Origin: Comamonadaceae bacterium
GTDB taxonomy: Bacteria; Pseudomonadota; Gammaproteobacteria; Burkholderiales; Burkholderiaceae_C
Reading direction: 5' to 3'
Assembly: GCA_008080595.1 (NCBI GenBank)
Contig: VIKI01000013.1
Location: 1 to 46,451, forward strand
DNA length: 46,451 bases
Below are positions 16,421 through 41,416 of this stretch, in pieces. Position 1 is the stretch's first letter; every line of letters begins with the position of its first letter. A program made the translations under genes and the position numbers. Under the pieces are notes generated by a model. That model was not told where the DNA came from and did not search any database. It was given only the letters and a program-made list of their open reading frames with translations.

Positions 16421-16501
16421 TGGATTTCAGGGTAAACTCTAATGCGTTCAGCAATGATGAAATTCACAACTTGAATTCCATCTGAGTTGGTCAAAATATC
16501 A

Positions 16502-16586: not shown

Positions 16587-16647
16587 AATTTAATAGGCTT
16601 GGCACATATCCTGTGTGCTGGCCAGTCAATTGAATCAAACTCAGACT

Positions 16648-17007: not shown

Positions 17008-17011
17008 CACA

Positions 17012-17491: not shown

Positions 17492-17501
17492 AGGCTTGAC
17501 G

Positions 17502-18113: not shown

Positions 18114-18123
18114 CAGTTGAAAC

Positions 18124-19377
18124 ATGGCTGATATCAAGAACTACACCCTGAATTTTGGACCGCAGCACCCTGCTGCACACGGCGTGTTGCGCCTTGTGTT
18201 GGAGCTCGATGGTGAGGTGATCCAGCGCGCTGATCCGCACATTGGTTTGTTGCATCGTGCCACTGAAAAGTTGGCTGAAAACAAAACCTATATCCAGGCC
18301 CTTCCGTATATGGATCGGCTGGATTACATGTCCATGATGTGTAATGAGCAAGCTTATTGCATGGCTCTGGAAAAAATGCTCGGGCTCGAAGTGCCCTTGC
18401 GGGCACAGTACATCCGTGTCATGTTTGCAGAGATTACGCGCCTGCTGAACCATTTGTTGTGGGTTGGGGCTCACGCCATTGACTGCGGTGCCATGACGGT
18501 GATGCTGTTTGCATTTCGCGAGCGTGAGGATCTGATGGATGCATACGAGGCCGTGAGTGGCGCGCGTATGCATGCGGCCTACTTTCGGCCGGGTGGTGTG
18601 TACCGGGATTTACCTGACACGATGCCTAAACATCAAGCCAACAAAATTCGCAGTGCCAAATCAACTGCCGCATTGAATCGCAACCGCGAAGGCAGTTTGC
18701 TGGATTTTCTGGATGATTTCACACAGCGTTTTCCAACCTATTTAGGTGAATACCACACGCTGTTGACCGATAACCGTATCTGGAAGCAACGCACTGTGGG
18801 CATTGGTGTGGTGACACCTGAACGGGCACTGAATCTTGGTTTTACCGGGCCAATGTTGCGCGGCTCTGGCATCGCTTGGGATTTGCGTAAAAAGCAGCCC
18901 TATGAGGTGTATGACCGGCTTGATTTTGACATTCCAGTGGGTAAGACCGGTGACACCTACGACCGGTATCTTGTCCGCATGGAAGAGATGAAGCAATCCA
19001 ACCGCATCATCAAGCAATGTGTGGATTGGCTCAAAGCCAATCCAGGCCCCGTCATCACGGACAACCACAAAATTGCGCCCCCTGATCGTGAGTCCATGAA
19101 AACCAACATGGAAGATCTGATTCACCATTTCAAGTTGTTCTCTGAAGGTTTTCCTGTGCCTGAAGGGGAAGCTTATGTCGGTATTGAACATCCCAAAGGC
19201 GAGTTTGGTATTTACCTGATCAGTGATGGAGCCAACAAACCTTATCGCCTCAAAATCAGACCGCCAGCATTTGTCCACTTGGCAGCGCTGGATGAAATGG
19301 GACGCGGGCACATGATTGCGGATGCGGTTGCGATTATTGGCACCATGGACATTGTGTTTGGGGAAGTTGACCGATGA
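18124..19377 (+). CDS. nuoD: NADH-quinone oxidoreductase subunit D
   Basis: A 417-residue subunit related to the NiFe-hydrogenase large subunit, with no metal site. It lines the quinone cavity: the N-terminal [20 protein letters not shown] contains the quinone-binding His, and the conserved tyrosine lies in [13 protein letters not shown]. The C-terminus [19 protein letters not shown]...FGEVDR is intact. Its TGA overlaps the ATG of nuoE (ATGA). Confidence 0.97.
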
Positions 19378-19865
19378 TTTCTGAAGAATCCAAAGCGCGC
19401 TTCGCCAAAGAAGTTGCAAAATATCCGTCAAGTCAGAAGCAATCGGCTGTGATGGCATGTCTGGCTATTGTTCAGCAAGAGTTGGGCTACGTGAGTCCTG
19501 AGAGTGAACAGTTTGTGGCTGACTATCTGGGTATGGCCCCTATGGCTGTGCATGAGGTCACCAGTTTCTACAACATGTACAACCAAAAACCTGTTGGGAA
19601 GTACAAGATTAATGTGTGTACCAATTTGCCCTGTCAACTGCGTGATGGTGGCAAGGCCTTGGCTCATTTAAAGAGCAAACTAGGCATTGATGAGAATCAG
19701 ACCACGTCCGATGGTTTTTTCACTTTGCAACAGTGTGAATGTTTGGGCGCTTGTGCTGACTCACCTGTTTTGTTGGTCAATGATGCCACCATGTGCAGCT
19801 TTATGACGAACGAAAAGCTTGATCAAATGATTGATGGTTTACGCTCAGCTGAGGTGAAGTCATGA
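19374..19865 (+). CDS. nuoE: NADH-quinone oxidoreductase subunit E
   Basis: A 163-residue thioredoxin-like [2Fe-2S] subunit (cluster N1a) of the NADH-oxidising module. Cluster ligands are visible as CTNLPCQL and [11 protein letters not shown]. It pairs with NuoF. It overlaps nuoD and nuoF by four bases each, so translation is coupled along this part of the operon. Confidence 0.97.
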
Positions 19866-21214
19866 ACGCAAACCAGTTTTTGTCTCGATTCAGAGCCAGT
19901 GGTGTTGAAACATGCTTGCATAACAGGCACATCAGTCCACAAATCTATGCTGATTTAAATGGCAGCAACTGGCATTTGAAAGACTATGAATCGCGAGGTG
20001 GTTATCAGGCTTTGCGCAAGGTGCTTGGTCTGGATGGCGGCGCTGGCTTGACGCAGGATCAGGTGATTGCCACAGTCAAGGAATCCGCTTTGCGAGGCCG
20101 TGGTGGCGCAGGTTTTCCGACAGGGCTGAAGTGGAGTTTCATGCCACGCAAGTTTCCTGGCGATAAATACTTGGTGTGTAACTCCGACGAAGGTGAGCCT
20201 GGGACTTGCAAAGATCGTGAAATCATGCAGTTCAATCCGCATATTGTGATTGAAGGGATGATCATCGCTGCGTATGCCATGGGGATTGCTGTAGGGTACA
20301 ACTACATTCATGGTGAGATTTTCCAAACCTATCAGCGTTTTGAAGAAGCCCTTGAAGAGGCGCGTGCAGCAGGTTTGTTGGGCAACAATATTTTGGGCAG
20401 CGGCTTCAGTTTTCAGCTTCATGCTGCACATGGTTTTGGTGCCTATATTTGTGGTGAGGAAACCGGTTTACTTGAATCTTTGGAAGGCAAAAAAGGCCAA
20501 CCCCGGTTCAAACCACCGTTTCCTGCGAGTTTCGGTCTGTATGGGAAACCCACGACCATTAACAATACGGAAACCTTTGCCGCCGTACCCTGGATCATTC
20601 GCAATGGGGGGCAAGCGTATTTGGAGTGTGGCAAACCAAACAATGGCGGCACTAAGATTTACTCAGTGAGTGGCGACGTTGAGCTCCCCGGTAACTATGA
20701 AGTGCCGATGGGAACCCCGTTTGCGAAACTATTGGAGCTCGCTGGTGGCGTTCGTCAAGGTCGACAAATGAAGGCAGTGATACCCGGAGGATCATCCTCC
20801 CCGGTGTTGCCTGCTGCTGTCATGATGGATTGCACCATGGACTACGACTCCATCGCTAAAGCTGGCTCCATGCTGGGCTCTGGTGCCGTCATTGTGCTGG
20901 ATGACTCTCGCTGCATGGTCAAGAGTTTGCAACGACTGAGTTATTTTTACATGCACGAGTCCTGTGGTCAGTGCACACCATGCCGTGAAGGTACCGGTTG
21001 GCTTTCACGCATTGTGGATCGGATTGAAACCGGGCATGGTCAAGCTGCAGATTTGGAGCTGTTGAACTCGGTCGCTGAAAACATTCAAGGGCGAACTATT
21101 TGTGCGCTTGGGGATGCTGCGGCGATGCCTGTGCGTGCCATGCTTAAGCATTTCATGCCTGAATTTGAATACCATGTGGCTCACAAGACCTGCATGGTTC
21201 CTGCTTACGTTTGA
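19862..21214 (+). CDS. nuoF: NADH-quinone oxidoreductase subunit F
   Basis: A 450-residue flavoprotein that takes hydride from NADH onto FMN and passes electrons to cluster N3. The NADH/FMN site is marked by [17 protein letters not shown] and [15 protein letters not shown], and the [4Fe-4S] ligands by [13 protein letters not shown] with a later Cys in [13 protein letters not shown]. The length is normal (about 430-450). Adjacent nuoE and nuoG complete the NADH-input module. Confidence 0.98.
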
Positions 21215-21226
21215 GCGAGTCACAAG

Positions 21227-23329
21227 ATGATTGAAATTGAACTCGACGGTAAAAAGGTTGACATTGCAGAAGGCAGCACGGTCATGCACGCTGCTGAAAA
21301 AGCAGGAACCTTTATTCCCCATTTTTGCTATCACAAAAAATTAAGCATTGCCGCCAGTTGCCGGATGTGTCTTGTTGATATCGAAAAAATGCCCAAACCC
21401 ATGCCTGCCTGTGCCACGCCAGTGACACAAGGCATGGTGGTTCACACCAAGACCGACAAAGCCATCAAGGCACAACAATCGGTCATGGAGTTCTTGCTGA
21501 TCAACCATCCTCTGGATTGTCCAATTTGTGATCAAGGCGGTGAATGTCAGTTGCAAGATATTGCGGTGGGTTATGGTGGTTCGGCATCCCGATACCATGA
21601 AGAAAAACGTGTTGTGTCCCCTAAAGATGTGGGGCCTCTGATCTCTATGCAAGAGATGACACGTTGTATCCACTGCACGCGCTGTGTACGTTTTGGTCAA
21701 GAAATTGCGGGTGTCATGGAATTGGGCATGCCCTTTGTAGGCAACAGTGTTGACTCTGAACTTTCGGGCAACATGATTGACATTTGCCCTGTTGGGGCGT
21801 TGACCAGCAAGCCATTCCGCTACAGTGCACGAACATGGGAATTGTCTCGCCGCAAGTCGGTCAGCCCACATGACTCCACAGGTGCGAACTTGATTGTTCA
21901 GGTCAAAAACAATCGGGTCATGCGCGTGGTGCCGTTGGAAAATGAGTCTGTCAACGAATGCTGGATTGCGGATCGTGACCGTTTTTCCTATGAGGCTTTG
22001 AATAGCACTGAGCGTTTGACCGAACCCATGATCAAACAAGGTGGTCAATGGAAGTCAGTCAATTGGCAGACTGCGTTGGAATATGTGGCTAATGGACTGA
22101 AGCAAATTCGTGCTGAGTTTGGTTCAGCAAGTCTGGGGGCACTGGTAAGCCCGCACTCCACATTGGAAGAGCTTCATTTGTCGGTTGAATTGATGCGGGG
22201 ATTGGGTAGTTCAAACATTGACTATCGCCTGCGAAATGCTGAGTTTCCTGCACATGAGGGTATCCGGTATTTGGGCATGCCCATCGCTTCGTTGTCGAAT
22301 CTGCAGAGTGTGCTGGTGGTTGGATCAAACCTGCGCAAAGATCATCCTCTGTTTGCGCAACGCATTCGTCAAGCCGTAAGAAAAGGCTGTGTGTTAACCG
22401 CGATTGGTTCAGGTCAGGAAGATTGGGCAATGCCCGTATTTTCCCGAATTCAAGCCTCGGCAGATCAGTGGGTTCAAATCCTGGCTTCTGTGGCCAGTGC
22501 CGTTGCTGCAGAAAAGGGTTGTACGTCTCCTACATCTGTCGAGGCAACTGAGAACGCCATAGTCATTGCGCGTGCGTTGGTTTCGGGTGAGCACAAGGCC
22601 ATACTGTTGGGTAATGGTGCTGCGCATCATGCACAGGCTTCGAGCCTGCTTGCACTCACTCAATGGATCGCAGATCAAACGGGTGCAAGTTTTGGTTATT
22701 TGACCGAAGCAGCCAACACTGTCGGAGCTCAATTGGTCGGTGCAATACCTGCAAATGGTGCATCCCATGCGGGTGACATGCTGGCTGGGGCTCTTAAAGC
22801 CGTGTTGTTGTTGAACACTGAGCCTGAGTTTGATGGGGTATGGAGCAGCAAGGCCCTTGATGCCATGAGCAGCGCCAAGATGGTGGTGTCTTTGAATCCA
22901 TTCAAAGCCAACATGCAGTTTTGTGATGTGGTGTTGCCAGTCTCTCCCTTTACAGAAACATCTGGCACATTTGTGAATGCAGAGGGTCTTGCCCAGAGTT
23001 TCCACGCAGTCGTACAACCACTCGGAGAAACCCGACCGGCATGGAAGGTGTTGCGTGTGTTGGCCAATATGCTTGAGGTTTCCGGGTTTGATTACAACTC
23101 CTCGCAGGACGTACTGAAAAGTATTCCTGGCTTGCAATTGGGAGAGACGGTGCACGTCTTGGCAGAAAAATTGAGTAACCGTACATCTGCGAATATTGAC
23201 CTGAATGCTCATGCAGGTGCACCCGTGGTTGCAAGTCTGTACCAACTCGATGGCATTGTTCGGCGTGCGCCTTCACTCCAGTTGACCGCGGATGCTAGGT
23301 CTGTGAAGTCTCAAGAGGTGGCAGCATGA
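21227..23329 (+). CDS. nuoG: NADH-quinone oxidoreductase subunit G
   Basis: A 700-residue iron-sulfur subunit of the peripheral arm. The N-terminal [2Fe-2S] ligands ([20 protein letters not shown], with a later Cys in PACATPV), the His-Cys3 cluster region ([14 protein letters not shown]) and the [4Fe-4S] region ([16 protein letters not shown], with a later Cys in [14 protein letters not shown]) are in order. The molybdopterin-oxidoreductase-like C-terminal part follows without the cofactor-binding signature, as expected. It starts 13 bases after nuoF and overlaps nuoH by four bases. Confidence 0.97.
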
Positions 23330-24408
23330 GTGATTTTTTGTTTTCTTTGGGCCACGGCCTTCTCAGCGCGTCCTGGTGGACAACGATGGCGTGGCCCATC
23401 ATCTGGGCATTGCTGAAAGTTGTGGCTGTTTTGATGATTGTGTTAACCGCAGTCACGTATGCCACGCTTTGGGAGCGTAAATTACTCGGTTGGGTTCAGA
23501 TTCGTTTGGGGCCCAATCGGGTCGGGCCGTGGGGTTTGCTACAACCCATTGCCGATGCTCTGAAATTGATGACCAAGGAAATTGTGCGTCCTGCGGCTTC
23601 AGACAAGGTGCTTTTTTATCTTGGCCCGGTGATGACGGTAGCTCCGGCATTGGCCGCCTGGGCGGTGGTTCCTTTCGGGCCCGAAATCGCTGTCGCCAAC
23701 CTGAATGCAGGCTTGTTGTTTCTCATGGCCATCACTTCCCTGGAGGTTTATGGGGTGATCGTGTCAGGTTGGTCATCCAACTCAAAGTATGCGTTTTTAG
23801 GCTCTTTGCGTGCCTCGGCGCAAATGGTGAGTTATGAGATTTCGATGGGATTTTGTTTGTTGATTGTGTTGATGGTTTCATCAAGTTTGAATCTCACAGA
23901 CATTGTCATGACGCAAGGCAAGGGTCAGTTTGCACAAATGGGATTGAACTTTTTGTCCTGGAATTGGCTGCCTTTGTTGCCCATTGTGGTCGTGTATTTT
24001 GTGTCTGGCTTGGCTGAGACAAACCGAACACCTTTCGATGTGATCGAAGGTGAATCTGAAATTGTGGCTGGGCACATGGTGGAGTATTCGGGCATGTCGT
24101 GGGCGATGTTTCAAATGGCTGAGTACGCCAGTATTTGGCTGCTCTCCATTTTGTCTGTCACCATGTTTTTTGGTGGTTGGATGCCACCCATCGACAGCGC
24201 TTTATTCAATGCGATTCCTGGCTGGATTTGGCTTGGACTTAAAACGTTTTTTGTGATGACCATCTTCATTTGGGTACGTGTGACGTTTCCAAGGTTCCGG
24301 TATGACCAAATCATGCGTTTGGGCTGGAAGATTTTTATTCCTGTGACCTTGGTATGGCTGGTCGTGGTCGGTGTTTGGATGCAGACCCCTTGGAACATTT
24401 GGATCTAA
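23326..24408 (+). CDS. nuoH: NADH-quinone oxidoreductase subunit H
   Basis: A 360-residue membrane subunit with eight to nine helices that forms the membrane side of the quinone channel. Conserved stretches are [20 protein letters not shown] and the acidic loop [20 protein letters not shown], which couples quinone reduction to proton movement. It overlaps nuoG by ATGA. The length is typical for Betaproteobacteria (about 350-360). Confidence 0.97.
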
Positions 24409-24420
24409 TTCGAGTCGCTT

Positions 24421-24954
24421 ATGTCTACCCCAACTACAAATACTGTTGACCACTTGCCAGGTCAAGCTTTTTCGTTGAAAGATTTCTTTTCAAGCTTCCT
24501 GTTGGTTGAATTGCTCAAAGGCATGAAACTCACGGGTAAGTATGCGTTTCGCAGCAAGATTACGCTTGAATACCCTGAAGAGAAAACACCTCTGTCGCCG
24601 CGCTTTCGTGGCCTTCATGCCTTGCGCCGTTACGACAATGGCGAAGAGCGCTGCATCGCTTGCAAACTGTGTGAAGCCGTGTGTCCTGCTATGGCCATTA
24701 CCATCGAATCCGAGGTGCGTGAAGATGGGTCTCGGCGGACAAATCGGTATGACATTGATCTCACCAAGTGCATATTTTGTGGATTTTGCGAAGAAAGTTG
24801 CCCGGTCGATTCCATCGTTGAAACCAACATTCTGGAGTACCACGGAGAAGAACGCGGTGATCTCTATTTCACAAAAGAAATGTTGTTGGCCGTAGGGGAT
24901 CGTTTTGAGGCACAAATTGCAGCTGACAAGGCTGCTGATGCCAAATACCGCTGA
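24421..24954 (+). CDS. nuoI: NADH-quinone oxidoreductase subunit I
   Basis: A 177-residue ferredoxin-like subunit carrying clusters N6a and N6b. Two CxxCxxCxxxCP motifs are visible: [12 protein letters not shown] (about 78-89) and [12 protein letters not shown] (about 117-128). An amphipathic N-terminal helix ([16 protein letters not shown]) contacts the membrane. The first about 20 residues are a variable extension. It lies between nuoH and nuoJ in the normal order. Confidence 0.97.
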
Positions 24955-24977
24955 CTTCTAAGAAAGATACGTTAACC

Positions 24978-25637
24978 ATGGATGTCAAGACTGGTCTGTT
25001 TTATCTATTTTCGGCAGTGCTGTTGCTGTCTTCGTTTCGTGTGATCACGGCTCGAAATCCTGTGCATGCCGTGTTGTTTTTGGTGCTGTCATTTTTTCAA
25101 GCATCCATGATCTGGATGTTGCTGAAAGCAGAATTTCTCTCGATCACCTTGGTGCTGGTGTATGTCGGGGCAGTGATGGTGCTGTTTCTCTTCGTTGTGA
25201 TGATGCTCGATGTCAAGATCGAAGGTATGCGTGAGGGTTTCTGGAAACACTTTCCCTTGGCTGCTGTGGTCGGCGTTTTGATTGTGCTGGAAATGTCTGC
25301 AGTATTGATGGGCGGCTTCCGAGTTGTCGATGAACCCAAAGTGGTCGCAGTGGTTGGGCAAGTGGGTGTTCCAGTGTCAAACACACGTGAATTGGGCTTG
25401 TTGCTTTACACCCATTACATTTACCCGCTGGAGGTGGCTGCAGCACTGTTGTTGGTTGCCATGATCGCGGCCATTGCCCTGACTTTGCGTCACCGCAAGG
25501 ATGTCAAAACAATCGATCCTTCCAAGCAGGTTCATGTGAAATCTGGTGATCGCTTAGCGGTTATCAAAATGGCAGCAACTCAGCCTGCTTTGCCTCAGCC
25601 ATCGATTGAGGCCCCCACTTTGGAGCACAAGGTATGA
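24978..25637 (+). CDS. nuoJ: NADH-quinone oxidoreductase subunit J
   Basis: A 219-residue membrane subunit with five predicted helices. The third helix shows the conserved pi-bulge region [20 protein letters not shown], which takes part in proton-path coupling. A hydrophilic C-terminal tail of about 50 residues is less conserved. It overlaps nuoK by ATGA. Confidence 0.95.
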
Positions 25638-25942
25638 CACTCACATTAGGTCACTTCCTATCTTTGGGAGCGATGTTGTTCGCGCTCTCAGTGGTTGGGA
25701 TTTTTTTAAATCGTAAAAATCTGATTGTTTTGCTGATGGCTATCGAATTAATGCTTCTGGCTGTCAATACCAACTTTGTCGCGTTTTCTCACTATTTGGG
25801 TGACTTGAATGGGCAAATATTTGTTTTCTTTATTCTGACGGTTGCTGCTGCTGAGTCGGCCATTGGCTTGGCCATTCTGGTTTTACTGTTCCGTCACAAA
25901 TCGACCATCAATGTTGATGAACTCAATACATTGAAGGGTTAA
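25634..25942 (+). CDS. nuoK: NADH-quinone oxidoreductase subunit K
   Basis: A 102-residue, three-helix membrane subunit related to MrpC. The two essential glutamates are present: one in [13 protein letters not shown] (about E36) and one in [17 protein letters not shown] (about E72). The length is standard. Translationally coupled to nuoJ and followed by nuoL four bases later. Confidence 0.97.
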
Positions 25943-25946
25943 CAAA

Positions 25947-27962
25947 ATGAGTCAAACCCTTTCTTCTTCAACGCTTCTGGTGATTGCACTTGCGCCTTTG
26001 GTGGGGGCCGTTGCTGCTGGTGTACTGGGTACCCAGTTTGGTGGCAATGTCATTGGTCGGCGCTTGTCCCATTCGCTCACTATCCTGGGTGTCTTTTTAT
26101 CCTTTGTGCTCTCGGCGCTGACGCTCAAAAGTGTTGCCTTGGAAGGCGCACGATTCAACGAAACCATTTACACATGGATGGTGGTGGGCGGTCTCAAGAT
26201 GGAAATCGGCTTTATGGTCGATGGATTGACTGCCATGATGATGACCGTGGTCACTTTTGTGTCTTTGATGGTGCATATCTACACTATTGGTTACATGGAA
26301 GAGGATGAGGGCTATAACCGATTCTTTGCCTACATCTCCTTGTTCACGTTCTCGATGTTGATGCTGGTCATGAGCAACAACATGTTGCAGCTCTTTTTTG
26401 GCTGGGAAGCAGTAGGTTTGGTGTCGTATTTGTTGATTGGTTTTTGGTTCAATAAACCGACGGCAATTTTTGCCAATATGAAGGCTTTCCTGGTGAATCG
26501 TGTCGGTGACTTCGGATTTATTCTTGGCATTGGTTTGTTGGCGGCTTACACCGGTACGCTCAATTACGCAGAAACTTTTGCCAAATCCGCAGACCTCGCC
26601 AAGCTCATGTTGCCTGGGACTGACTGGATGTTGGTCACCGTGATTTGCATTTGTTTATTCATTGGTGCCATGGGTAAATCAGCCCAGTTTCCATTACATG
26701 TCTGGCTGCCTGACTCGATGGAAGGCCCCACACCCATTTCGGCGTTGATTCATGCCGCCACAATGGTGACTGCTGGGATATTTATGGTCGCCAGAATGTC
26801 GCCCTTGTTTGAACTCAGTGAAACTGCGCTCAATTTTGTGTTGATCATTGGGGGTATTACGGCCTTGTTCATGGGTTTTCTGGGCATTATCCAGAATGAC
26901 ATCAAACGCATCGTGGCTTATTCGACCCTGTCCCAGTTGGGTTATATGACGGTGGCTTTGGGCGCTTCGGCTTATTCGGTGGCGGTTTTCCACTTGATGA
27001 CACATGCCTTTTTCAAAGCACTGCTGTTCTTGGCCGCAGGTTCGGTCATCATGGGGGTGCATCACAATCAGGATATTCGCTGGATGGGTGGTTTGCGCAA
27101 ATACATGCCCATCACGTGGATCACCAGTTTGTTGGGCTCTTTGGCTTTGATCGGAACCCCACTTTTTGCCGGCTTTTACTCCAAAGATGAAATCATCATG
27201 GCGGTGCATGCCAGTCAGTTGCCAGCCGCAGGCTTTGCTTACTTTTCGGTCTTGGCTGGTGTGTTTGTGACTGCTTTTTATTCGTTCCGCCTGTATTTCC
27301 TGGTGTTTCATGGCAAAGAGCGTTTTGATCAAAACCCGGATGCACATCATGGCCATGATGACCATGGACATCATGGCAGTCAAAAGCCACATGAATCCCC
27401 TTGGGTGGTCACAGTTCCATTGGTCTTGCTTGCCATTCCCTCGGTGTTGATTGGATTTATCACAATCAGTCCGATGCTCTTTGGTGATTTCTTTGGAGGT
27501 GCAATTTTTGTCAATCATGAATTGCATCACGCCATGGAAACCTTGCGAGAAGAATTCCATGGGCCTTTGCAATTGGCCATGCATGGATTGATTGCAGCAC
27601 CATTTTGGTTGGCTCTATCTGGTGTGGTTTTGGCCTACTACATGTACATGGTGAATCCAGCTTTGCCTGCGGCCATCAAGCGTCGAGTTGAACTCATCTA
27701 CACCGTACTGGAAAACAAGTACTACATGGATTGGTTCAATGAGAATGTCTTGGCTCCGGCGGCCCGTGGTTTAGGTTTCGCCCTCTGGAAGGTGGGTGAC
27801 CAAGCGGTGATTGATGGTGCTGTTGTGAATGGTTCTTGGCGCATTGTTGGCTGGGTTTCTGCCATCGTGCGTAAAGTTCAGACGGGGTATTTGTATGACT
27901 ATGCCCTCACCATGGTATTGGGCGTTTTTGTTCTGATGACGTATTTCGTCTGGCTCAAATAG
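25947..27962 (+). CDS. nuoL: NADH-quinone oxidoreductase subunit L
   Basis: A 671-residue antiporter-like subunit at the distal end of the membrane arm, with the long lateral helix at its C-terminus. The channel Glu is in FFGWEAVGLVSYLLIG and the Lys in IGAMGKSAQFPLHVWLPDS. A histidine-rich loop with eight His in about 19 residues (around 464-483, HHGHDDHGHHG) lies between two helices; its DNA includes a perfect 16-base palindrome at 27345-27360, probably a by-product of the His and Met codons. The length is normal, in contrast to nuoM next door. Confidence 0.97.
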   Translation: MSQTLSSSTLLVIALAPLVGAVAAGVLGTQFGGNVIGRRLSHSLTILGVFLSFVLSALTLKSVALEGARFNETIYTWMVVGGLKMEIGFMVDGLTAMMMTVVTFVSLMVHIYTIGYMEEDEGYNRFFAYISLFTFSMLMLVMSNNMLQLFFGWEAVGLVSYLLIGFWFNKPTAIFANMKAFLVNRVGDFGFILGIGLLAAYTGTLNYAETFAKSADLAKLMLPGTDWMLVTVICICLFIGAMGKSAQFPLHVWLPDSMEGPTPISALIHAATMVTAGIFMVARMSPLFELSETALNFVLIIGGITALFMGFLGIIQNDIKRIVAYSTLSQLGYMTVALGASAYSVAVFHLMTHAFFKALLFLAAGSVIMGVHHNQDIRWMGGLRKYMPITWITSLLGSLALIGTPLFAGFYSKDEIIMAVHASQLPAAGFAYFSVLAGVFVTAFYSFRLYFLVFHGKERFDQNPDAHHGHDDHGHHGSQKPHESPWVVTVPLVLLAIPSVLIGFITISPMLFGDFFGGAIFVNHELHHAMETLREEFHGPLQLAMHGLIAAPFWLALSGVVLAYYMYMVNPALPAAIKRRVELIYTVLENKYYMDWFNENVLAPAARGLGFALWKVGDQAVIDGAVVNGSWRIVGWVSAIVRKVQTGYLYDYALTMVLGVFVLMTYFVWLK

Positions 27963-27975
27963 GAGAAATATAAAA

Positions 27976-29370
27976 ATGGGTTTGCTGAGCCTGGCTATCT
28001 GGACACCAATTTTGTTTGGTGTGGTGTTGCTTGCACTAGGTCGTGATGATCAAGCGCAGGCTGTTCGTTGGATCGCGTTGATTGGTGCGCTTGTCAGTTT
28101 GCTGGTGACACTGCCCCTCTATACAAGGTTTGATGTCGCTACGGCGGCGATGCAATTTGTCGAAACATCACCCTGGATCGAACGATTTAATATCAATTAC
28201 CACTTAGGTATTGATGGTATTTCTGTCTGGTTCATTTTGCTCACGGCCTTCATCAATGTGATTGTGGTGATTGCCGGTTGGGAAGTGATTACCAGTCGGG
28301 TCAATCAATACATGGGTGCCTTTTTGATACTCAGCGGGCTCATGATTGGTGTCTTTTGTGCGCTCGATGGCATGCTCTTCTATGTGTTTTTTGAGGCCAC
28401 ACTGATTCCGATGTACCTGATTATTGGTGTCTGGGGTGGCCCCAACAAAATCTACGCAGCCTTTAAATTCTTCCTGTATACCTTGCTGGGTCCGCTTGGC
28501 CAGACTGCCCAAACTCTTTTGTTCTTTGCTTTTCTTGCTGCGTTTGCAGTCAAGGTGCCGATGTGGCCTGTACATACCTGGTTACCAGACGTGCACGTAG
28601 AGGCTCCAACCGGTGGCTCGGCCGTTCTGGCGGCCATCATGCTGAAGCTTGGTGCCTATGGTTTCCTTCGTTTCTCTTTGCCCATCACACCTGATGCTTC
28701 CCATGAGTGGGCTGGCTTGATGATTGGTTTGTCACTTGCTGCTGTGATTTATGTTGGCTTGGTGACCTTGGTGCAGAAGGACATGAAGAAACTGGTGGCC
28801 TACTCATCGGTTGCCCATATGGGTTTTGTCACGCTGGGCTTTTTCATCTTTAATGACCTCGGTGTTGCTGGCGGTATCGTGCAAATGATTTCGCACGGGT
28901 TTGTATCGGCTGCCATGTTCTTGGGCATTGGCGTCTTGTATGACCGGGTTCACTCACGTGAGATTTCCAGCTATGGTGGTGTTGTCAATACGATGCCTAA
29001 ATTCACCGCATTTGCCTTGCTTTTTGCCATGGCAAATTGTGGATTGCCAGGTACAGCTGGCTTTGTGGGTGAATGGATGGTGATCTTGGGTGCAGTCAAG
29101 GTTAATTTTTGGGTTGGATTGGCTGCAGCAAGTGCATTGATTTTTGGTGCGGCTTACACGCTTTGGATGGTTAAACGTGTGTATTTTGGTCCAGTGGCCA
29201 ATGACCATGTGAAGCACCTGAAAGACATCAATTCGCGTGAATTTTTCTATCTGACTCTGCTTGCTATTGCGGTGTTGTACATGGGGGTTTACCCCAAACC
29301 TTTCACTGATGTGATGGATGCTTCTGTCGCTCAATTGCTTACGCACGTGGCCCAATCGAAACTGAATTGA
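27976..29370 (+). CDS. nuoM: NADH-quinone oxidoreductase subunit M, apparently lacking about 27 internal residues
   Basis: A 464-residue antiporter-like subunit; relatives I remember are about 490 residues. The channel Glu (E140, FFEATLIPMYL) and Lys (K193, FAVKVPMWPVHTWLPD) are present but only 53 residues apart, against about 80 in related proteins and 90 in E. coli. The shortening is at G172-P173: AAFKFFLYTLLG runs directly into PLGQTAQTLLFF, where the rest of the membrane helix (usually SLLMLVALIYLY-like) and a loop should be. The frame is kept. Everything before and after aligns well to the family. Either a real in-frame deletion of about 81 bases or an assembly/sequence error. Confidence 0.93.
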   Translation: MGLLSLAIWTPILFGVVLLALGRDDQAQAVRWIALIGALVSLLVTLPLYTRFDVATAAMQFVETSPWIERFNINYHLGIDGISVWFILLTAFINVIVVIAGWEVITSRVNQYMGAFLILSGLMIGVFCALDGMLFYVFFEATLIPMYLIIGVWGGPNKIYAAFKFFLYTLLGPLGQTAQTLLFFAFLAAFAVKVPMWPVHTWLPDVHVEAPTGGSAVLAAIMLKLGAYGFLRFSLPITPDASHEWAGLMIGLSLAAVIYVGLVTLVQKDMKKLVAYSSVAHMGFVTLGFFIFNDLGVAGGIVQMISHGFVSAAMFLGIGVLYDRVHSREISSYGGVVNTMPKFTAFALLFAMANCGLPGTAGFVGEWMVILGAVKVNFWVGLAAASALIFGAAYTLWMVKRVYFGPVANDHVKHLKDINSREFFYLTLLAIAVLYMGVYPKPFTDVMDASVAQLLTHVAQSKLN

Positions 29371-29407
29371 TCAGTTTGTCCAGATAACACCGAGATAAGA
29401 GATTCCT

Positions 29408-30895
29408 ATGATTGACAAACTCAGCTTGATCGCGGTTTACCCTGAATTCATTTTGCTTTTGATGGGGTGCGTGATTGCATTGTTTGACCTCAGTGTCAAA
29501 AGCCACTCTCGTACTGCAACCTATGTGGTCACCATGTTGACGCTGGCGGTTGTCGCAGCTCTTCAGGCCAGTTACGCCAGCACAGGGCAGACCATTTATG
29601 CATTTGGCCATATGGTTGTCAGTGACGTGATGGGAAACTGGTTGAAGTGTTTTGCCACATTGGCCATGATGGTCACTTTGGTCTATGGCCGTCCGTATGC
29701 TGCAGATCGAGATATGTTGCGTGGTGGCGAGCTGTTTGTGCTCAGCATCTTCTCCTTGCTGGGTATGTTTGTCATGATTTCTGGCAACAATTTCCTGGTG
29801 ATCTACATGGGTGTTGAATTGTTGACACTCTCAAGCTATGCCCTGGTTGCCTTAAGGCGTGATCACACCCAGTCGATTGAAGCGGCCATGAAGTATTTTG
29901 TGTTGGGTGCCTTGGCATCGGGTTTCCTGCTTTACGGTATGTCCATGATTTATGGCGCAACTGGCTCACTTGACATGCAGGAAGTTTTGAAAGCGGTCAG
30001 TTCTGGACAGGTCAAGCATCAAGTGTTGGTGTTCGGTTTGGTGTTTTTGGTAGCGGGTCTGGCCTTCAAATTAGGTGTTGTACCCTTCCACATGTGGATC
30101 CCTGATGTCTACCAGGGCGCACCTACGGCAATCACACTCATGATTGGTGGTGCACCCAAATTGGCAGCGTTTGCTGTCACCATCCGTATCTTGGTTGAAG
30201 GCCTTTCACCATTGGCCTTTGATTGGCAGCAAATGCTGATGTTGCTGGCGATTGCTTCGCTTGCGATTGGTAATTTTGCGGCCATTGCGCAAACCAATAT
30301 CAAACGTATGCTGGCCTTCTCAACCATCTCACACATGGGTTTTGTCTTGATCGGCATGATGTCCGGTTTGGTCAATGGGCATGCCGATGCGGCGGGTGGT
30401 GCCTACAGTTCATCCATGTTTTACGTGATTTCTTACGTCTTAACGACGTTGGCCAGTTTTGGTGTCATTCTTTTGCTGGCTCGTAATGGTTTTGAGAGTG
30501 AAGAAATTTCGGATTTTGCAGGTCTGAATCAACGCAGCCCTTTTTATGCCGGTGTGATGGCGCTTTGCTTGTTTTCATTGGCGGGTATTCCTCCGATGAT
30601 TGGTTTTTATGCCAAGCTCGCGGTTTTGCAAGCCTTGATTGCAGCTGGAGGAACTCTGCATCTGGCCTTGGCTGTCTTTGCCGTCATGATGTCTTTGGTG
30701 GGAGCCTTCTATTACCTGCGTGTGGTCAAGGTCATGTACTTTGATGCTCCTACCCAATCTGGAGCGGTGACCGCACCTTTTGAGGTGCATGCTGTTTTGT
30801 CCATGAATGGTGCTTTGCTTCTGGTTTTGGGTTTGTTGCCAGGTGGCCTCATGGCCTTGTGTGCCAGTGCCATCAAACAGATGCTGACAAGTTGA
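29408..30895 (+). CDS. nuoN: NADH-quinone oxidoreductase subunit N
   Basis: A 495-residue, fourteen-helix antiporter-like subunit completing the membrane arm. The channel Glu ([14 protein letters not shown]) and Lys ([18 protein letters not shown]) are in place and about 85 residues apart, which is a useful internal comparison for the shortened nuoM. The conserved [19 protein letters not shown] is present. Last nuo gene; the Nudix gene follows 18 bases later with no terminator visible. Confidence 0.97.
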
Positions 30896-30913
30896 GTTGG
30901 CTTGTTGGTTCGA

Positions 30914-31531
30914 ATGGATGATTTGCCCAATGACGGTGCAACTTGCACGGGTTTGTTTGAAGAAAAAGTAGACAGTCAAGAGCTTTTTAAAGGTCACTTT
31001 CTTCACGCTTTTCGAGATACGGTGCGCTTGCCAAGTTCCGCTTTGGCCAAGCGTGAATATGTGGTTCACCCCGGTGCTGTGATGATCATCCCTTTGGTTG
31101 AGGGAGACGATGGTCAGGTTCAAATTGTTCTTGAGCGACAGTTCCGGTATCCTATTGGGCAGGTCATGATCGAATTTCCTGCCGGAAAACTGGATCCCGG
31201 TGAGGACTGTTTTCAATGCGCTCAACGCGAGTTGCTAGAGGAAACGGGCTATTCCGCCAGCCATTGGGCGCATGCGGGAGTGTTGCATCCAGTCATCGCC
31301 TATTCCACAGAATTCATTGACATCTGGTTTGCTCGCGGACTCAGGGCTGGCCCACAGAAGCTGGATGACGGTGAATTTTTGGATGTGTTCACGGCCACCT
31401 TCACTCAGTTGCTCCAGTGGTGTGCACAAGGTCAGGTCACCGACGGTAAAACGCTGACAGGTGCCCTGTGGTTACAGAATGTGCTCTCTGGTGCATGGCA
31501 ACTTGAGTGGCAAGAAAGGGTGATCCCATGA
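30914..31531 (+). CDS. Nudix hydrolase, ADP-ribose pyrophosphatase type
   Basis: A 205-residue protein with a complete Nudix box GX5EX7REUXEEXGU (GKLDPGEDCFQCAQRELLEE, then TGY; about residues 96-118) and the upstream FPAGKLD typical of ADP-ribose/nucleoside-diphosphate sugar hydrolases. It would hydrolyse ADP-ribose to AMP and ribose 5-phosphate using Mg2+. The ATG at 30914 is chosen over an in-frame TTG at 30902; neither has a strong Shine-Dalgarno. It sits at the end of the nuo operon, an order seen in relatives, so a link to NAD turnover is plausible. In several relatives I recall a small DUF2818 membrane-protein gene between nuoN and this one; there is no room for it here. Confidence 0.88.
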   Translation: MDDLPNDGATCTGLFEEKVDSQELFKGHFLHAFRDTVRLPSSALAKREYVVHPGAVMIIPLVEGDDGQVQIVLERQFRYPIGQVMIEFPAGKLDPGEDCFQCAQRELLEETGYSASHWAHAGVLHPVIAYSTEFIDIWFARGLRAGPQKLDDGEFLDVFTATFTQLLQWCAQGQVTDGKTLTGALWLQNVLSGAWQLEWQERVIP

Positions 31532-31629
31532 GTTATTTGCATAACTTGATGAACTGACCCGTTTCGAATGCTTTGTTTGTAGCGCGCTCCCTAGAATCTT
31601 CGGTGTCAAAAGAACTACCGGAGACTTGC

Positions 31630-34600
31630 ATGACCCATGCACCCCTTGCCGCTTTGCGTACCTATACCCAGGAAAACGCTGGAGTTGCCTCACACGATTT
31701 AGCTGATTTTGTATCGGCCTATTTTGATAAATCCGATCCAGATGAGTTGCAGGAACGTGGCCCATCCCGCCTTCTTGCAATGGCCAATGCGCACCGCCGC
31801 TTGTTGGATGTAGAACCCGATGCCAACGGTGTTCGGATGCGTGTCTACAACCCCACCTTGGCAGAAGATGGTTTTGTCAGTGAGCACACCATCATTCAGA
31901 TCGTCCATGAAGACATGCCATTTTTGGTCGACTCCGTCACCATGGCGGTTAATCGCAATGGCCGTGTTGCGCACTGGATTGTTCATCCGCTGCTGACCAT
32001 TGAACGTAATGCCGAAGGGCAAGTGATTCGAACAGCAGTCGCTCAATACAAAGAGGCCAGCTCACATCACATTTCATCCTTGATCATGGTCGAATGTGAT
32101 CGTATTTTGAGCCTTTCCGACCGTGAGCAGTTGCTGGCTGACCTTTCCCATGTTTTGCGAGATGTGCGTGTTTCGGTTGCAGATTGGTCACTCATGCTGC
32201 AACGTCTTCAAACCGTTCGCTCAGCCTCTGCAGAGGTTGCATCTTCAGTCACGGATCAGCGTGAAGGGGTGGATTTTCTTCTTTGGCTGGAAGACCAGCA
32301 CTTTACTTTTTTGGGGGCACGCGACTACACCCTGAAGCACGAACAAGATGGCATCAGCCTGGTGGCCGAACCAGACTCTGGTTTGGGAATTTTGCGTGGC
32401 GATCCGCAAACGCCGGTCAGCCGTCTGCCTTCAGATGCCATGGAGTTTGTCAATTCAGATCAGTTGGTGTTGATCACCAAAGTCATGACACGCTCAACAG
32501 TGCATCGCCCCTCGTGGCTGGATTGTTTAACCGTCAAACGCTTTGATGCCAATGGAAAGCTTGTGGGTGAGGCCCGTTTCTTGGGTCTTTACACCTCTAA
32601 AGCCTATGCCGCCATGGTGGGCGAGATTCCATTGATCCGGCGCAGAGCAGCGGATGTCATGGCTGCGGTAGATGTGTTGCCAGAAAGCCATGCGGCCAAA
32701 TCCTTGCAATCCATTCTGGATGCCTATCCTCGCGACGAGTTGTTTCAAATTGACAAGCCCACGTTACTGGAACATGCACTGGGAATTCTGCGTTTGCAAG
32801 AAAGTCAGCGGCCCCGCGTCTTTTTGCGACGTGACCCCTTTGGCCGCTTTACCTCGGTGCTGGTATTCGTGCCACGGGATCGCTACAACACAGAGTTGCG
32901 CATCAAAATCGGCGAGGAACTGAGCCGTGCCTTTGATGGCTTGTCGATTGAATTCACCCCCATGTTGACAGACAGTCCACTGGCGCGCATCCACTACCTG
33001 ATCCGTGCACGCCAGCAAGCTCCTAAAAACGTCGATGTTGCCATGCTGGAGGCCCGCGTGGCACAACTGGCCCAGCGCTGGGAAGACGATTGCAAGCAAG
33101 CCCTGGTACAGGTGCATGGTGAAAGTCATGGGATGCACCTGGCCGCACGTTTTGCCAATGGATTCCCGGCGGCCTATCAAGAAGAGTTTTCCGGCCCCAT
33201 GGCTGCAGACGATGTGCAGGTGTTGTTTGGCTTGTCTGACGCCACTCCCCTGACCGTAAGACTTTACCGCCCGATTGACAGTTCACCGGGCTCGGTACGT
33301 TTCAAAATCTTCAGCCGCTCCAAGGTCGCCCTCTCTGATTCTTTGCCGGTACTTGAACGCATGGGGGCACGTGTGCTTGATGAGCATCCATACCGGGTGC
33401 TTGATACGGTTCAAAACACCCAAGCCTCCGAATGCTGGATTCATGACCTCGGTTTGCAACTGGCTGCACCGCTTGAGTTCTCGGAAATCCGCCAGCGCTT
33501 TGAGTCCTTGTTTGTCCAGGCCTGGCACAAAGAATGTGACAGTGATGACCTCAACAGCCTGGTGCTGGTCAGCACACTGGATGCCCGCGCCATCGCAGTA
33601 TTGCGGGCCTACACACGCTACTTCAAACAATTGGATTTCCCGTACAGCCAAAGCTACATGGAAGCCACGCTGGTTAAAAATGCCGGCCTGACACAAGCCT
33701 TGTACCAACTGTTTGCAGCCCGCTTTGATCCTGCATGCCAGGCAGACAATGCCGCCGCACAAGCCAGCTTGAACACATCGATCAACGCACAACTCAGCGC
33801 AGTGGCCAGCCTGGAAGAAGATCGAATCTTGCGTCAATACCACCACGCCATTCTGGCCACAGTGCGCACCAACGTGTGGCAAATAGCTGCTACGGGCGAA
33901 TACAAGTCATACATGAGCTTCAAATTCCGTTCTCACGCGATGCCTGGCATGCCGCAGCCCAAACCTCTTTTTGAAATTTGGGTGCATTCCCCACGTGTTG
34001 AAGCCATTCACCTGCGCATCGATAAAGTTGCCCGTGGTGGACTGCGTTGGTCAGATCGGCGTGAAGACTTCCGCACCGAAATTCTGGGCCTGGTCAAAGC
34101 CCAGCAAGTCAAAAACACGGTCATTGTTCCGGTCGGATCCAAGGGCGGTTTTGTCCTGAAAAGTCCCCCCCCAGCGAGTGACCGTGAGGCCTTCATGGCT
34201 GAAGGTATTGCGTGCTACAAGCTGCTGCTGTCCGGCATGCTGGACTTGACCGACAACCTAGTCAAAGGCCAGGTCGTACCCCCAGTCAATGTCGTCCGGC
34301 ATGATGAGGATGACCCCTATCTGGTGGTGGCGGCAGACAAAGGCACCGCCAGCTTTTCAGACATTGCCAACAGCGTCTCTGCTCAATACGGTTATTGGTT
34401 GGGCGATGCCTTTGCCTCTGGTGGTTCGGTGGGTTACGACCACAAAAAAATGGGCATCACCGCCCGTGGGGCATGGGAATCGGCCAAACGCCACTTCAGG
34501 TCTCGGTCCCACAATATTCAGACCACCCCCTTCACGGTGGTCGGTATTGGTGACATGTCCGGCGATGTGTTTGGCAACGGCATGCTGCTGTCAAACCAGA

Positions 34601-36399
34601 TCCAATTGGTGGCTGCGTTTGACCATCGGCACATCTTCATTGATCCCACACCAGATGTGGCCCGCAGTTTTGCCGAGCGCCAACGCCTGTTTGCTCTGCC
34701 ACGCTCCAGTTGGGATGACTTTGACCGAAGTGTCATGTCAGAGGGCGGTGGCATTTATGCCCGATCAGCCAAGTCGATCAGCTTGTCCCAGATGGCCCGC
34801 GAAGTCTTGGGAATTGAGGCACAAGAACTCTCGCCCAACGACTTGTTACACGCCCTTTTACAAGCCCCGGTGGACATGATCTACAACGGCGGGATTGGCA
34901 CTTACGTCAAATCGTCCCAAGAGAGCCATGCCCAAGTCGGCGACAAGGCGGGCGATGCGTTTCGTGTCAATGGCCAACAACTGCGCTGCAAGGTGTTGGT
35001 GGAAGGCGGCAATCTGGGCTGCACCCAGTTGGGCCGGATCGAATACGCACAACACGGCGGCTTGATTTACACCGATGCCATTGACAACTCGGCGGGCGTG
35101 GACTGCTCTGACCATGAGGTCAACATCAAGATCTTGCTGGATCGTGTGGTCGAGGCCGGTGACCTGACCCTCAAACAGCGCAACGAGTTGCTGGCCTCCA
35201 TGACCGACGAGGTGGGCCATCTGGTGCTGGCCGACAACTACTACCAGACCCAAGCGCTGGATGTGGCCTGCCATCGCCCCCTGTATTTCCTGGCCGGGCA
35301 GCAACGCCTCATGCAATGGCTTGAAGGAGCTGGCCGACTCAACCGCCAGATTGAATTTTTGCCCGCTGACGAAGAAATTGCCCGCAGGCGCAAGCTGCAG
35401 CTTGGCCTGACCGCGCCCGAGGGCGCGGTGCTTTTGGCCTATGCCAAGATGTCGGTCTTTGATGATCTGCTGGCCAGCAATTTGCCGGATGACCCGTATT
35501 TCACCCGTGTCCTGAAAGCCTATTTTCCCAAGGCCTTGACCGAACGGTTTGCCAGCGCGATGGATCAGCACCCGCTCAAGCGCGAAATCATCGCCACCTT
35601 TGTGGCCAACACCGTGGTGAACCGCACCGGGGCCACCTTTGTGAATTTCCTGGCCGCAGAAGCCGGTGCCACTGTGGCCGATGTGGTGCGAGCCTATACC
35701 CTGGCCCGTGAAATCTTTGACCTGGAACCTTTGTGGGATCAAATTGATGCGCTGGATGGCAGCGTATCGAGCAGTTTGCAGCTTGATCTGTTGTGTAAGC
35801 TGATTGCAATTGCCCAACGTGCCTCACGCTGGATGTTGCGCGCACGCTCCAAAGCAGCCGATTTGCCGACCCTGATCACACGTTACCAACCCGGAGCCCG
35901 TGAACTCAGGGCAAATTTGACCCAATGGTTACCGGCCAGTGCTGCGGAGCAATGGGCGCAGGCCACACACAAACTGATGCACGCCGGTGTTGTTCCTGAA
36001 TTGGCTGAAAATCTGACCGCGCTGGAATTCATTTTCCCGGCGCTGGATTTGGTCGACCTGACCGATCATGCCAACACCACTCTGGCCCAGGCGGCACAAG
36101 TCTACTTTGGCGTGGAAAACGTGCTGAGCCTGGTGGCCTGGCGCAGCCAAATCACCCGCCTGCCCACCGACACCCTGTGGCAAACCCAGGCCAGGGGCAG
36201 TGCCCGTGAAGACGTGTACGCCATTGCCAACCAGATCAGCCAAAGTGTGTTGATGCGTTTTGAGGGCGTGGCCGCTTGGTCTGAATGCCATACAGCCAGC
36301 ATTGAGCGTTTGTCCCGTTTGCTGCAAACCATCACCGCTCAGGAACCCGATCTGGCCCCTGTTTCAGTGGCTTTGCGTGAGCTTCGGCATCTGATTTAA
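31630..36399 (+). CDS. gdhB: NAD-specific glutamate dehydrogenase, 180-kDa class
   Basis: A 1589-residue enzyme, the normal size for the L-180/Bac_GDH class, converting glutamate to 2-oxoglutarate and ammonia with NAD+. A long N-terminal regulatory part contains ACT-like segments (about 1-700). The catalytic core begins near residue 770 (FKFRSHAMPG) with RGGLRWSDRREDFRTEILGL (about 802) and the lysine-containing PVGSKGGFVLK (about 838), followed by the Rossmann region (VVGIGDMSGDVFGNG). A C-terminal helical domain of about 400 residues ends it. GGAG lies seven bases before the ATG at 31630; the open frame upstream is leader. It stands alone, convergent with a small minus-strand gene. It probably serves glutamate catabolism, allosterically controlled as in other members. 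Confidence 0.95.
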   Translation: MTHAPLAALRTYTQENAGVASHDLADFVSAYFDKSDPDELQERGPSRLLAMANAHRRLLDVEPDANGVRMRVYNPTLAEDGFVSEHTIIQIVHEDMPFLVDSVTMAVNRNGRVAHWIVHPLLTIERNAEGQVIRTAVAQYKEASSHHISSLIMVECDRILSLSDREQLLADLSHVLRDVRVSVADWSLMLQRLQTVRSASAEVASSVTDQREGVDFLLWLEDQHFTFLGARDYTLKHEQDGISLVAEPDSGLGILRGDPQTPVSRLPSDAMEFVNSDQLVLITKVMTRSTVHRPSWLDCLTVKRFDANGKLVGEARFLGLYTSKAYAAMVGEIPLIRRRAADVMAAVDVLPESHAAKSLQSILDAYPRDELFQIDKPTLLEHALGILRLQESQRPRVFLRRDPFGRFTSVLVFVPRDRYNTELRIKIGEELSRAFDGLSIEFTPMLTDSPLARIHYLIRARQQAPKNVDVAMLEARVAQLAQRWEDDCKQALVQVHGESHGMHLAARFANGFPAAYQEEFSGPMAADDVQVLFGLSDATPLTVRLYRPIDSSPGSVRFKIFSRSKVALSDSLPVLERMGARVLDEHPYRVLDTVQNTQASECWIHDLGLQLAAPLEFSEIRQRFESLFVQAWHKECDSDDLNSLVLVSTLDARAIAVLRAYTRYFKQLDFPYSQSYMEATLVKNAGLTQALYQLFAARFDPACQADNAAAQASLNTSINAQLSAVASLEEDRILRQYHHAILATVRTNVWQIAATGEYKSYMSFKFRSHAMPGMPQPKPLFEIWVHSPRVEAIHLRIDKVARGGLRWSDRREDFRTEILGLVKAQQVKNTVIVPVGSKGGFVLKSPPPASDREAFMAEGIACYKLLLSGMLDLTDNLVKGQVVPPVNVVRHDEDDPYLVVAADKGTASFSDIANSVSAQYGYWLGDAFASGGSVGYDHKKMGITARGAWESAKRHFRSRSHNIQTTPFTVVGIGDMSGDVFGNGMLLSNQIQLVAAFDHRHIFIDPTPDVARSFAERQRLFALPRSSWDDFDRSVMSEGGGIYARSAKSISLSQMAREVLGIEAQELSPNDLLHALLQAPVDMIYNGGIGTYVKSSQESHAQVGDKAGDAFRVNGQQLRCKVLVEGGNLGCTQLGRIEYAQHGGLIYTDAIDNSAGVDCSDHEVNIKILLDRVVEAGDLTLKQRNELLASMTDEVGHLVLADNYYQTQALDVACHRPLYFLAGQQRLMQWLEGAGRLNRQIEFLPADEEIARRRKLQLGLTAPEGAVLLAYAKMSVFDDLLASNLPDDPYFTRVLKAYFPKALTERFASAMDQHPLKREIIATFVANTVVNRTGATFVNFLAAEAGATVADVVRAYTLAREIFDLEPLWDQIDALDGSVSSSLQLDLLCKLIAIAQRASRWMLRARSKAADLPTLITRYQPGARELRANLTQWLPASAAEQWAQATHKLMHAGVVPELAENLTALEFIFPALDLVDLTDHANTTLAQAAQVYFGVENVLSLVAWRSQITRLPTDTLWQTQARGSAREDVYAIANQISQSVLMRFEGVAAWSECHTASIERLSRLLQTITAQEPDLAPVSVALRELRHLI

Positions 36400-36441
36400 C
36401 TGGTCGAGCTCAGCACCGCGCCTCGCAACGGGGCGCAGGGT

Positions 36442-36855
36442 TCAGGCGCTCAGGTTGAGAATACGCCCAGTGGTCTTCCCCTGGGCGTAAGACATCAGAG
36501 GGGTATTGATTCTGGTTTGCAGACCACTGTCGGCGGCATTCTGTTGGGCACTGATGGCGTTGTGAAGTCCGCTGAGCCATGTTTGTGTCTTGCCCTGCGC
36601 AACCGCCTGGCTGGGCTTGGTGCGTGATGTGTAGGTGCTGGCTGTTTGAGTGGCCTGATTGGCTTGGCTGCTCAGACTACGTACCTTGTCTTGGGATTGC
36701 TGAGTCTGGGATTCGGCTTCAGAAACCTGCTGACGCAGACGATCCTCATTGGCCTGAGCCTGCTCGGCCTCACGACGTGCCGCCGCCAGCCGACTGCGGA
36801 TCAGGCTGGTTTGTAGCGACGGAGTCGCGCTGTTGGTGGCAGAAAGGGCAGCCAT
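36442..36855 (-). CDS. Small unrecognised protein with coiled coil and C-terminal QGKTTGR motif
   Basis: A 137-residue hydrophilic protein I do not recognise. Residues about 20-75 are a heptad-like helical stretch rich in Ala, Gln, Glu and Arg (RSRLAAARREAEQAQANEDR), so probably a coiled coil. No signal peptide, membrane segment, Cys or metal motif. The C-terminus AQGKTTGRILNLSA closely resembles the C-terminus of the next upstream gene (TQGQTTGRLLNVTA), and both have NTP six to seven residues earlier. The genes are 35 bases apart on the same strand and probably co-transcribed. The shared tail looks like a common docking or processing signal; this is inference. The downstream gap to gdhB has only a short GC-rich hairpin with no T-run. 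Confidence 0.7.
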   Translation of the reverse strand: MAALSATNSATPSLQTSLIRSRLAAARREAEQAQANEDRLRQQVSEAESQTQQSQDKVRSLSSQANQATQTASTYTSRTKPSQAVAQGKTQTWLSGLHNAISAQQNAADSGLQTRINTPLMSYAQGKTTGRILNLSA

Positions 36856-36890
36856 GGTACGAATCCAAAAATACAGGTGTGAATGCCGCC

Positions 36891-37088
36891 TCAGGCCGTC
36901 ACATTCAACAGCCGCCCGGTGGTCTGCCCTTGTGTATTCACCACTGGGGTGTTTTTAGGGGGGGCACTTTTTTTGACTTCAGGCTCAGCATGTTGAGCCT
37001 GCATGTCCGCTTTTTGCTCAGCTTGTTGACTCTGGGTGGGGCGCTGCGTGGTCTGAACAGACGAGGCCCTGGGTGCTGAAACGTTCAT
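36891..37088 (-). CDS. Small unrecognised protein sharing the C-terminal QGQTTGR motif
   Basis: A 65-residue, Gln/Ser/Thr/Lys-rich, probably disordered protein that ends NTPVVNTQGQTTGRLLNVTA. Its coding status is supported by a strong Shine-Dalgarno (AAAGGAG, seven bases before the ATG), a well-spaced sigma-70-like promoter upstream (37116-37144), and the match of its C-terminal 14 residues to those of the adjacent downstream gene. Only the tail is shared; the N-terminal parts are unrelated. Function unknown. Confidence 0.65.
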   Translation of the reverse strand: MNVSAPRASSVQTTQRPTQSQQAEQKADMQAQHAEPEVKKSAPPKNTPVVNTQGQTTGRLLNVTA

Positions 37089-37115
37089 AAGAGGCTCCTT
37101 TCGAGGATTGTTTTG

Positions 37116-37144
37116 AGTTTACGCCTCTTGACATTTTGATTCAA
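37116..37144 (-). promoter_or_regulatory. Candidate sigma-70 promoter of the two small genes
   Basis: On the minus strand TTGAAT (37139-37144), 17 bases, TAAACT (37116-37121); each hexamer matches four of six consensus bases. It lies 28 bases upstream of the 37088 start. Confidence 0.45.
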
Positions 37145-37217
37145 GTCCCTGCTGGTTTTTGGATGTGATTTGAGGTGAGCCGTCAAAAACACCCATAATG
37201 CGGCATTTTTATACATC

Positions 37218-40354: not shown

Positions 40355-41416
40355 TTAGGCGCCCAGCAACTCGCCGCTACGAAAGGCCTGTGCGCCGGCA
40401 ATCTTGCCAAGCTCACCGCCGCTGGTGATGTAACGGTCACGAATGCGGGCGTAAAAACAGCCGGTCACACCCGCTGTGACACGGTGCACCTGGTTGGCAA
40501 TCGGGTCAATCACCTCGGCCACCAGATCCCCTGCTTGAAGTTGCTGGCCCACTTGTGCGGCAAACACCACCACGCCGGGAGCCGGTGCATGCAGGGTTTC
40601 GGAGCCCGCCAGCGGTGTGGCCTGGCATTGTGGGGCCGGCACTTCGGGCACTTGCGGGCAGGCCAACACCCCTATGAATTGCATCCAGTTCAGAATGGCT
40701 TGGGCATCGGTTTGCGCCCAGGTGTGGCTCACATCCAGCTCGCCGCGCAATTCAATGGTGGTGCTGCAACAGGCTTGGGGCACAGGCAGCTCCAACCCGC
40801 GGGCTTTCAAACGCTCAGCCAGTTGCCACCAGACGCCTGACAGGCATTCGTCGATCGGCTGCTGGCCCGAATTTTTGGCCAGCAAAATGGTTTGGGCTTT
40901 TAAAAAATGGGCCAGCGGGGCCAGTTGTGGCCAGCAGGCTTCTTCGGTATAGAAGTGCAACACAGCTTCGCAGTCGCAGTGCAAATCCAGCATGTAGTCG
41001 GCATCATGGGCTAGTAACAGCAGGGTGCGGCGCAGGCTTTGTAATTCGGTGTTGGGTTGCCAGCTGGTCAAAAACTGGGCGATGGCCTGGCGCAGGGTCA
41101 GCACGTTGGCCGTTGCATCTGGCCCCAGTTGGTCGCGCACCATGGGTTCTACGGCAGCGGCCAGGTCGGGGTAGTGGCGGTTGAAGTTTTCCGAGGTGTC
41201 CAGCTCAAAACGGCCCATCGGTTTGTGGTCGAGCCGTTGCGCCAGGCCGATCGGGTTGGCCACCGGTACCAGCAGCATGCCGGGCAACTCTTCGGCATGC
41301 AGGCTGGCCTGAATGTAAATTTTGGGGCCACTGCCCGCTGTGCCAAAGTGAAAGCTGCTCAGGGTTTTCTGGCTGCCCAGGCTGGCACAGAGCAGGGGGT
41401 GATCAATGCGTTGCAT
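40355..41416 (-). CDS. aotO: Succinylglutamate desuccinylase/aspartoacylase-family protein (AotO-like)
   Basis: A 353-residue protein of the M14-like zinc amidohydrolase family. The metal motif is visible as ASLHAEELPGMLLV (His and Glu, about residues 35-38) and DLHCDCEAVLHFY (His); the C-terminal domain (AGSETLHAPAPGVVVFAAQV, then GDLVAEVIDP) is biotinyl-lipoyl-like, as in bacterial members. It could release amino acids from N-acyl forms; the physiological substrate is not known. It is embedded between the second permease and the ATPase, 8 bases after the permease stop, the same place as aotO in Pseudomonas, which suggests action on imported ligand. An upstream in-frame ATG at 41494 lies inside the permease gene and is not chosen. 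Confidence 0.85.
   Translation of the reverse strand: MQRIDHPLLCASLGSQKTLSSFHFGTAGSGPKIYIQASLHAEELPGMLLVPVANPIGLAQRLDHKPMGRFELDTSENFNRHYPDLAAAVEPMVRDQLGPDATANVLTLRQAIAQFLTSWQPNTELQSLRRTLLLLAHDADYMLDLHCDCEAVLHFYTEEACWPQLAPLAHFLKAQTILLAKNSGQQPIDECLSGVWWQLAERLKARGLELPVPQACCSTTIELRGELDVSHTWAQTDAQAILNWMQFIGVLACPQVPEVPAPQCQATPLAGSETLHAPAPGVVVFAAQVGQQLQAGDLVAEVIDPIANQVHRVTAGVTGCFYARIRDRYITSGGELGKIAGAQAFRSGELLGA

Follow-up and report, generated by a model that had tools for sequence, protein, structure and literature searches.

Shortened nuoM gene in a draft bacterial genome as a probable local assembly error

RESULTS

The short form of nuoM in the window (the whole stretch of 46,451 nucleotides analyzed here) is most likely a local assembly or scaffolding error, a reading to which we give a probability of about 0.93 and which we hold strongly, although short of proof, from the comparison of sequences. 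What favors it is that short stretches of a similar kind are also missing from unrelated housekeeping genes of this draft. The initial annotation had left three options for this gene, namely, a complex I working with a re-entrant segment, a disabled complex I, or a wrong sequence. The last of these fits best, given that the losses found in the draft are clean and one-directional, fall in unrelated genes, and are mostly out of frame where they are coding. The draft (G000), which is most probably derived from a metagenome, consists of 322 contigs and is 89% complete.

The identity of the gene is supported both by its family matches and by its place. Its product scored 810.4 bits with NF004501 (NCBIfam; cut-off, 598) and 567.3 bits with TIGR01972 (cut-off, 263.8). 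The gene lies between two genes that we take from their sequences to be nuoL and nuoN (ORF order at 25947-30895), within a nuo operon that runs from nuoA to nuoN in ORF order, the genes being named from their sequences. Exactly 81 bp are absent from it compared with the congeners G010, G032, and G008, in agreement with the annotated lack of about 27 residues, and, in alignments with G010 and G032, the break is best placed after 28490 or 28491, with an ambiguity of ~1 bp (Table 1). In G010 numbering, the absent part corresponds to the 27 residues following G172, which comprise the latter portion of a hydrophobic helix together with the loop leading to the next one. We assume the truncated helix to be helix 6 of E. 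coli NuoM. On hydropathy, the G010 protein has peaks at ~174 and ~215 separated by a trough at ~194, whereas the window protein has a plateau and a single peak. One hydrophobic peak is thus gone at the junction and, by hydropathy, the set of membrane helices is incomplete, as expected from the annotated loss of most of one helix. Both the Glu and the Lys of the proton channel are present, yet E140 and K193 are 53 residues apart, as had been noticed, instead of the ~80 of an ordinary NuoM (80 in G010). The spacing in the neighboring NuoN, put at about 85 in the annotation, is 84. Along the window, DNA identity to G010 is ~89% at 11487-28494 (17 kb), ~82% at 28491-37147 (8.7 kb downstream), and then 85 to 92%; nuoM itself is ~91% identical on both sides of the junction despite the drop in the wider downstream DNA.

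Table 1. Position of nuoM and of the other losses discussed in the text
Feature	Position	Strand	Difference	Basis or comparison
nuoM as assembled	27976..29370	+	464 aa; 81 bp shorter than relatives'	ORF, family match, alignment
nuoM junction	28490..28492	+	81 bp (27 residues after G172) absent; no N	Alignment
nuoG as assembled	21227..23329	+	30 bp (10 residues) absent at 21731/21732	Versus G010, G008
Gene without NCBIfam family	40358..41416	-	69 bp absent at ~41273/41274	Versus G010 and G032; matches 376-aa G010 protein
Malic enzyme gene	L171:9954 (contig C45)		116 bp lost, out of frame	Halves 98% and 95% identical to G010
Guanine deaminase gene	L176:5560 (contig C50)		85 bp lost, out of frame	Halves 93% and 87% identical to G010
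Methylmalonyl-CoA mutase gene	L176:13956 (contig C50)		65 bp lost, out of frame	Halves 99% and 97% identical to G010

The main evidence comes from the rest of the draft. We compared 1.08 Mb of it, made up of the window and the first ≤20 kb of contigs C1 to C72 (ten of these masked to N), hence 73 of the 322 contigs and many of them in part, with 1.255 Mb of G010, a one-contig congener of 4.94 Mb. The aligned set comprised 141,373 bases in 59 alignments, each of at least 300 bases and at least 72% identity, and an event was considered clean when the length difference was 50 to 400 bp with no more than 10 unmatched query bases. Over these aligned bases, the draft had 11 clean deletions (58 to 123 bp) and no clean insertion with respect to G010, a split with a two-sided p of ~0.001. 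A looser listing found the draft shorter in 17 events and longer in 1, and among within-alignment gaps of 15 to 49 bases it was the shorter in 9 versus 2. Eight of the clean deletions lay well inside G010 ORFs, two at ORF ends, and one in no ORF of at least 80 aa. Those eight coding losses ignored the reading frame: five were out of frame (82, 116, 85, 65, and 98 bp) and three in frame (81 bp in nuoM, 69 bp in the gene at 41274, and 123 bp in the DAHP synthase gene), near the one third expected by chance.

Six of the eight affected G010 proteins could be named with NCBIfam, the other two having no family at 1e-30. They are an AroG-type DAHP synthase, an NADP-dependent malic enzyme, a guanine deaminase, a methylmalonyl-CoA mutase, NuoM, and a sensor histidine kinase, the score of the latter being below the cut-off. 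In the draft copies of the malic enzyme, the mutase, and the guanine deaminase, the frame shifts at the junction, and two further frame breaks affect less conserved proteins (~77 to 84%). Since the malic enzyme, mutase, guanine deaminase, DAHP synthase, and NuoM of G010 each match their family in one stretch across the site, G010 carries no insertion at those five sites. Broken copies of near-identical housekeeping enzymes are difficult to account for biologically, whereas sequence lost at joins accounts for them readily.

The same comparison with G010 was made for other genomes and returned neither clean deletions nor insertions in G032 (15 kb), in G008 (19 kb), in 28 genus loci (L010-L037; 106 kb), or in 80 named loci (L039-L118; 70 kb), these controls being mostly on the conserved nuo region. 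When cuts of 81 bp were spiked in to gauge sensitivity, the screen recovered them in 17 of the 28 genus loci and in 7 of the 25 named loci open to spiking; G032 and G008 were unspiked controls and coincide in part with two of the genus loci. Given this limited sensitivity, the controls indicate that losses of this kind are uncommon in other genomes, rather than absent from them.

The draft sample also contains 22 internal N runs of 1 to 69 bases, and the draft was thus scaffolded. Five runs could be measured against G010, a sixth stretch having no usable match. In the methylmalonyl-CoA mutase gene, 40 N stand in place of 148 G010 bases, while a run of 69 N replaces 17 G010 bases and is too long; runs of 15 N and 20 N, taken together, miss the right length by no more than 4 bases. 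On contig C1, 4 N (L127:15001-15004) adjoin a short repeated end with no G010 bases opposite, apparently a scaffold gap put where the ends overlap. A systematic underestimate of gap sizes as the exact mechanism found no support as a rule over these five runs. N-run sizes being this erratic, an N-free join that hides ~60 to 120 missing bases is plausible.

We propose that, at nuoM, two pieces separated by 81 bp in the actual chromosome would have been joined end to end without Ns, and an ordinary NuoM would thereby have lost 27 residues on paper; we infer that no read would support such a junction. A loss of 81 bp, a multiple of three, would have left the frame intact, and the artifact would hence resemble a protein variant. 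Two other origins of the gap were considered and rejected. Slippage between direct repeats does not fit, as no repeat longer than ~1 bp is found at the junction, nor does a chimera of two strains, as identity to G010 within nuoM is 91.5% on the left and 91.3% on the right, without a step. A second full-length nuoM was not found in the draft, where the nine other matches are antiporter-like frames of 24 to 32% identity. When the absent 81 bases were sought there, contigs below ~3 kb being read as N, only two chance-level matches of 20 to 22 bases appeared.

Besides nuoM, the window holds two further losses (Table 1). One of them is in nuoG, at variance with the annotation that all other nuo genes were intact. 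The tested 133-aa nuoG stretch was matched in full by 78 of 88 congeners, spanning 429 bases in 77 of them and 432 in one, compared with 399 in the window; among the remaining 10, two matched from residue 69 on only, one matched weakly, and seven gave no match. The extra residues are present in mitochondrial and bacterial solved NuoG/NDUFS1 chains (four alignments), and we presume that they sit between cysteines with a ligand role in cluster binding. The other loss affects a gene on the opposite strand that has no NCBIfam family at 1e-30, the product of which we take to resemble a hydrolase of the succinylglutamate desuccinylase/aspartoacylase type. The losses of 30, 69, and 81 bp in the window are all in frame, for which the chance would be ~1 in 27 if frames were ignored. 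This in-frame trio counts against an artifact, but it is outweighed by the genome-wide sample.

A real and recent in-frame deletion of nuoM in the sampled population would also fit the frame, which is open throughout, including across the junction, with no N there. The later helices would then misthread, and complex I would be disabled or left unassembled. The absence of 10 conserved residues from NuoG, encoded in the same operon, is what relaxed selection might give. However, the two halves of nuoM have dN/dS values against G010 of 0.0103/0.41 (~0.025) and 0.0076/0.457 (~0.017), hence ~0.02 in both, with amino-acid identities of 98.6 to 98.8%, and dN/dS is below ~0.06 in every nuo gene measured. 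Both halves appear to be under strong purifying selection and look like those of a normally constrained gene. Moreover, the like losses in the malic enzyme, methylmalonyl-CoA mutase, and guanine deaminase genes, mostly out of frame, are unrelated to complex I. We consider such a deletion very unlikely.

Still less probable is that the short NuoM is real and functional, its truncated helix being re-entrant and the later helices keeping their orientation. The conserved remainder of the protein and the open frame would agree with it, but the short form was found in none of the 29 congener loci (L009-L037) and none of the 80 named loci (L039-L118, mostly from Comamonadaceae and other Burkholderiales). 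The annotation had placed the ordinary spacing of the two residues at 80 to 90; it is 80 in all 29 congener loci and 79 to 80 in all 80 named loci, as scored by motif in 105 of the 109 loci (27/29 congener and 78/80 named) and read out in the remaining four, all at 80. The annotation had reasoned that the anomaly would vanish if a family alignment gave this length as normal, and that the same short form in sister strains would speak for a real variant; the 109 loci, all with the ordinary spacing, offer neither, and nothing was found in support of a working short form. A short-gap DNA pattern matched only the genome of the window among 89, in a search of low sensitivity in which the long-gap control matched just 27 of the 89. 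In addition, with losses spread over the genome in this pattern, nuoM needs no explanation of its own.

DISCUSSION

Our analysis argues that the short nuoM is probably not a real feature, nor a new kind of complex I, and that its biological importance is probably none. It is scarcely credible that the population truly carries the in-frame losses in NuoM (27 residues) and NuoG (10 residues) while expressing a complex I with a re-entrant shortened helix. If true, such a short NuoM would call into question the idea that antiporter-like subunits have an unalterable helix order. The case rather calls for caution, as in-frame losses in draft genomes mimic bold protein variants, and a comparison with a one-contig congener exposes them cheaply.

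With regard to known NuoM proteins, the window protein aligns entirely, except at the junction, with the family (NF004501 and TIGR01972) and with the solved structures 8qby chain M and 3rko chain M. It matches NF004501 and TIGR01972 in two stretches split by the gap, whereas NuoM of G010 does so in one stretch.

With regard to known assembly errors, Chen et al. 2020 (PMC7111523) describe local errors in metagenome-assembled genomes, suspected to feature prominently in assemblies made with IDBA-UD, and one of the error types in that work is the insertion of Ns despite overlapping ends. Uncorrected errors, according to the same authors, bring incorrect protein-coding sequences into public databases. 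Clean losses of 58 to 123 bp, as in our draft, are not described as such in the parts of Chen et al. 2020 (PMC7111523) on which we draw. Nevertheless, the draft resembles the cases presented in those parts by its short N runs, its Ns beside overlapping ends, and its wrong protein-coding sequences.
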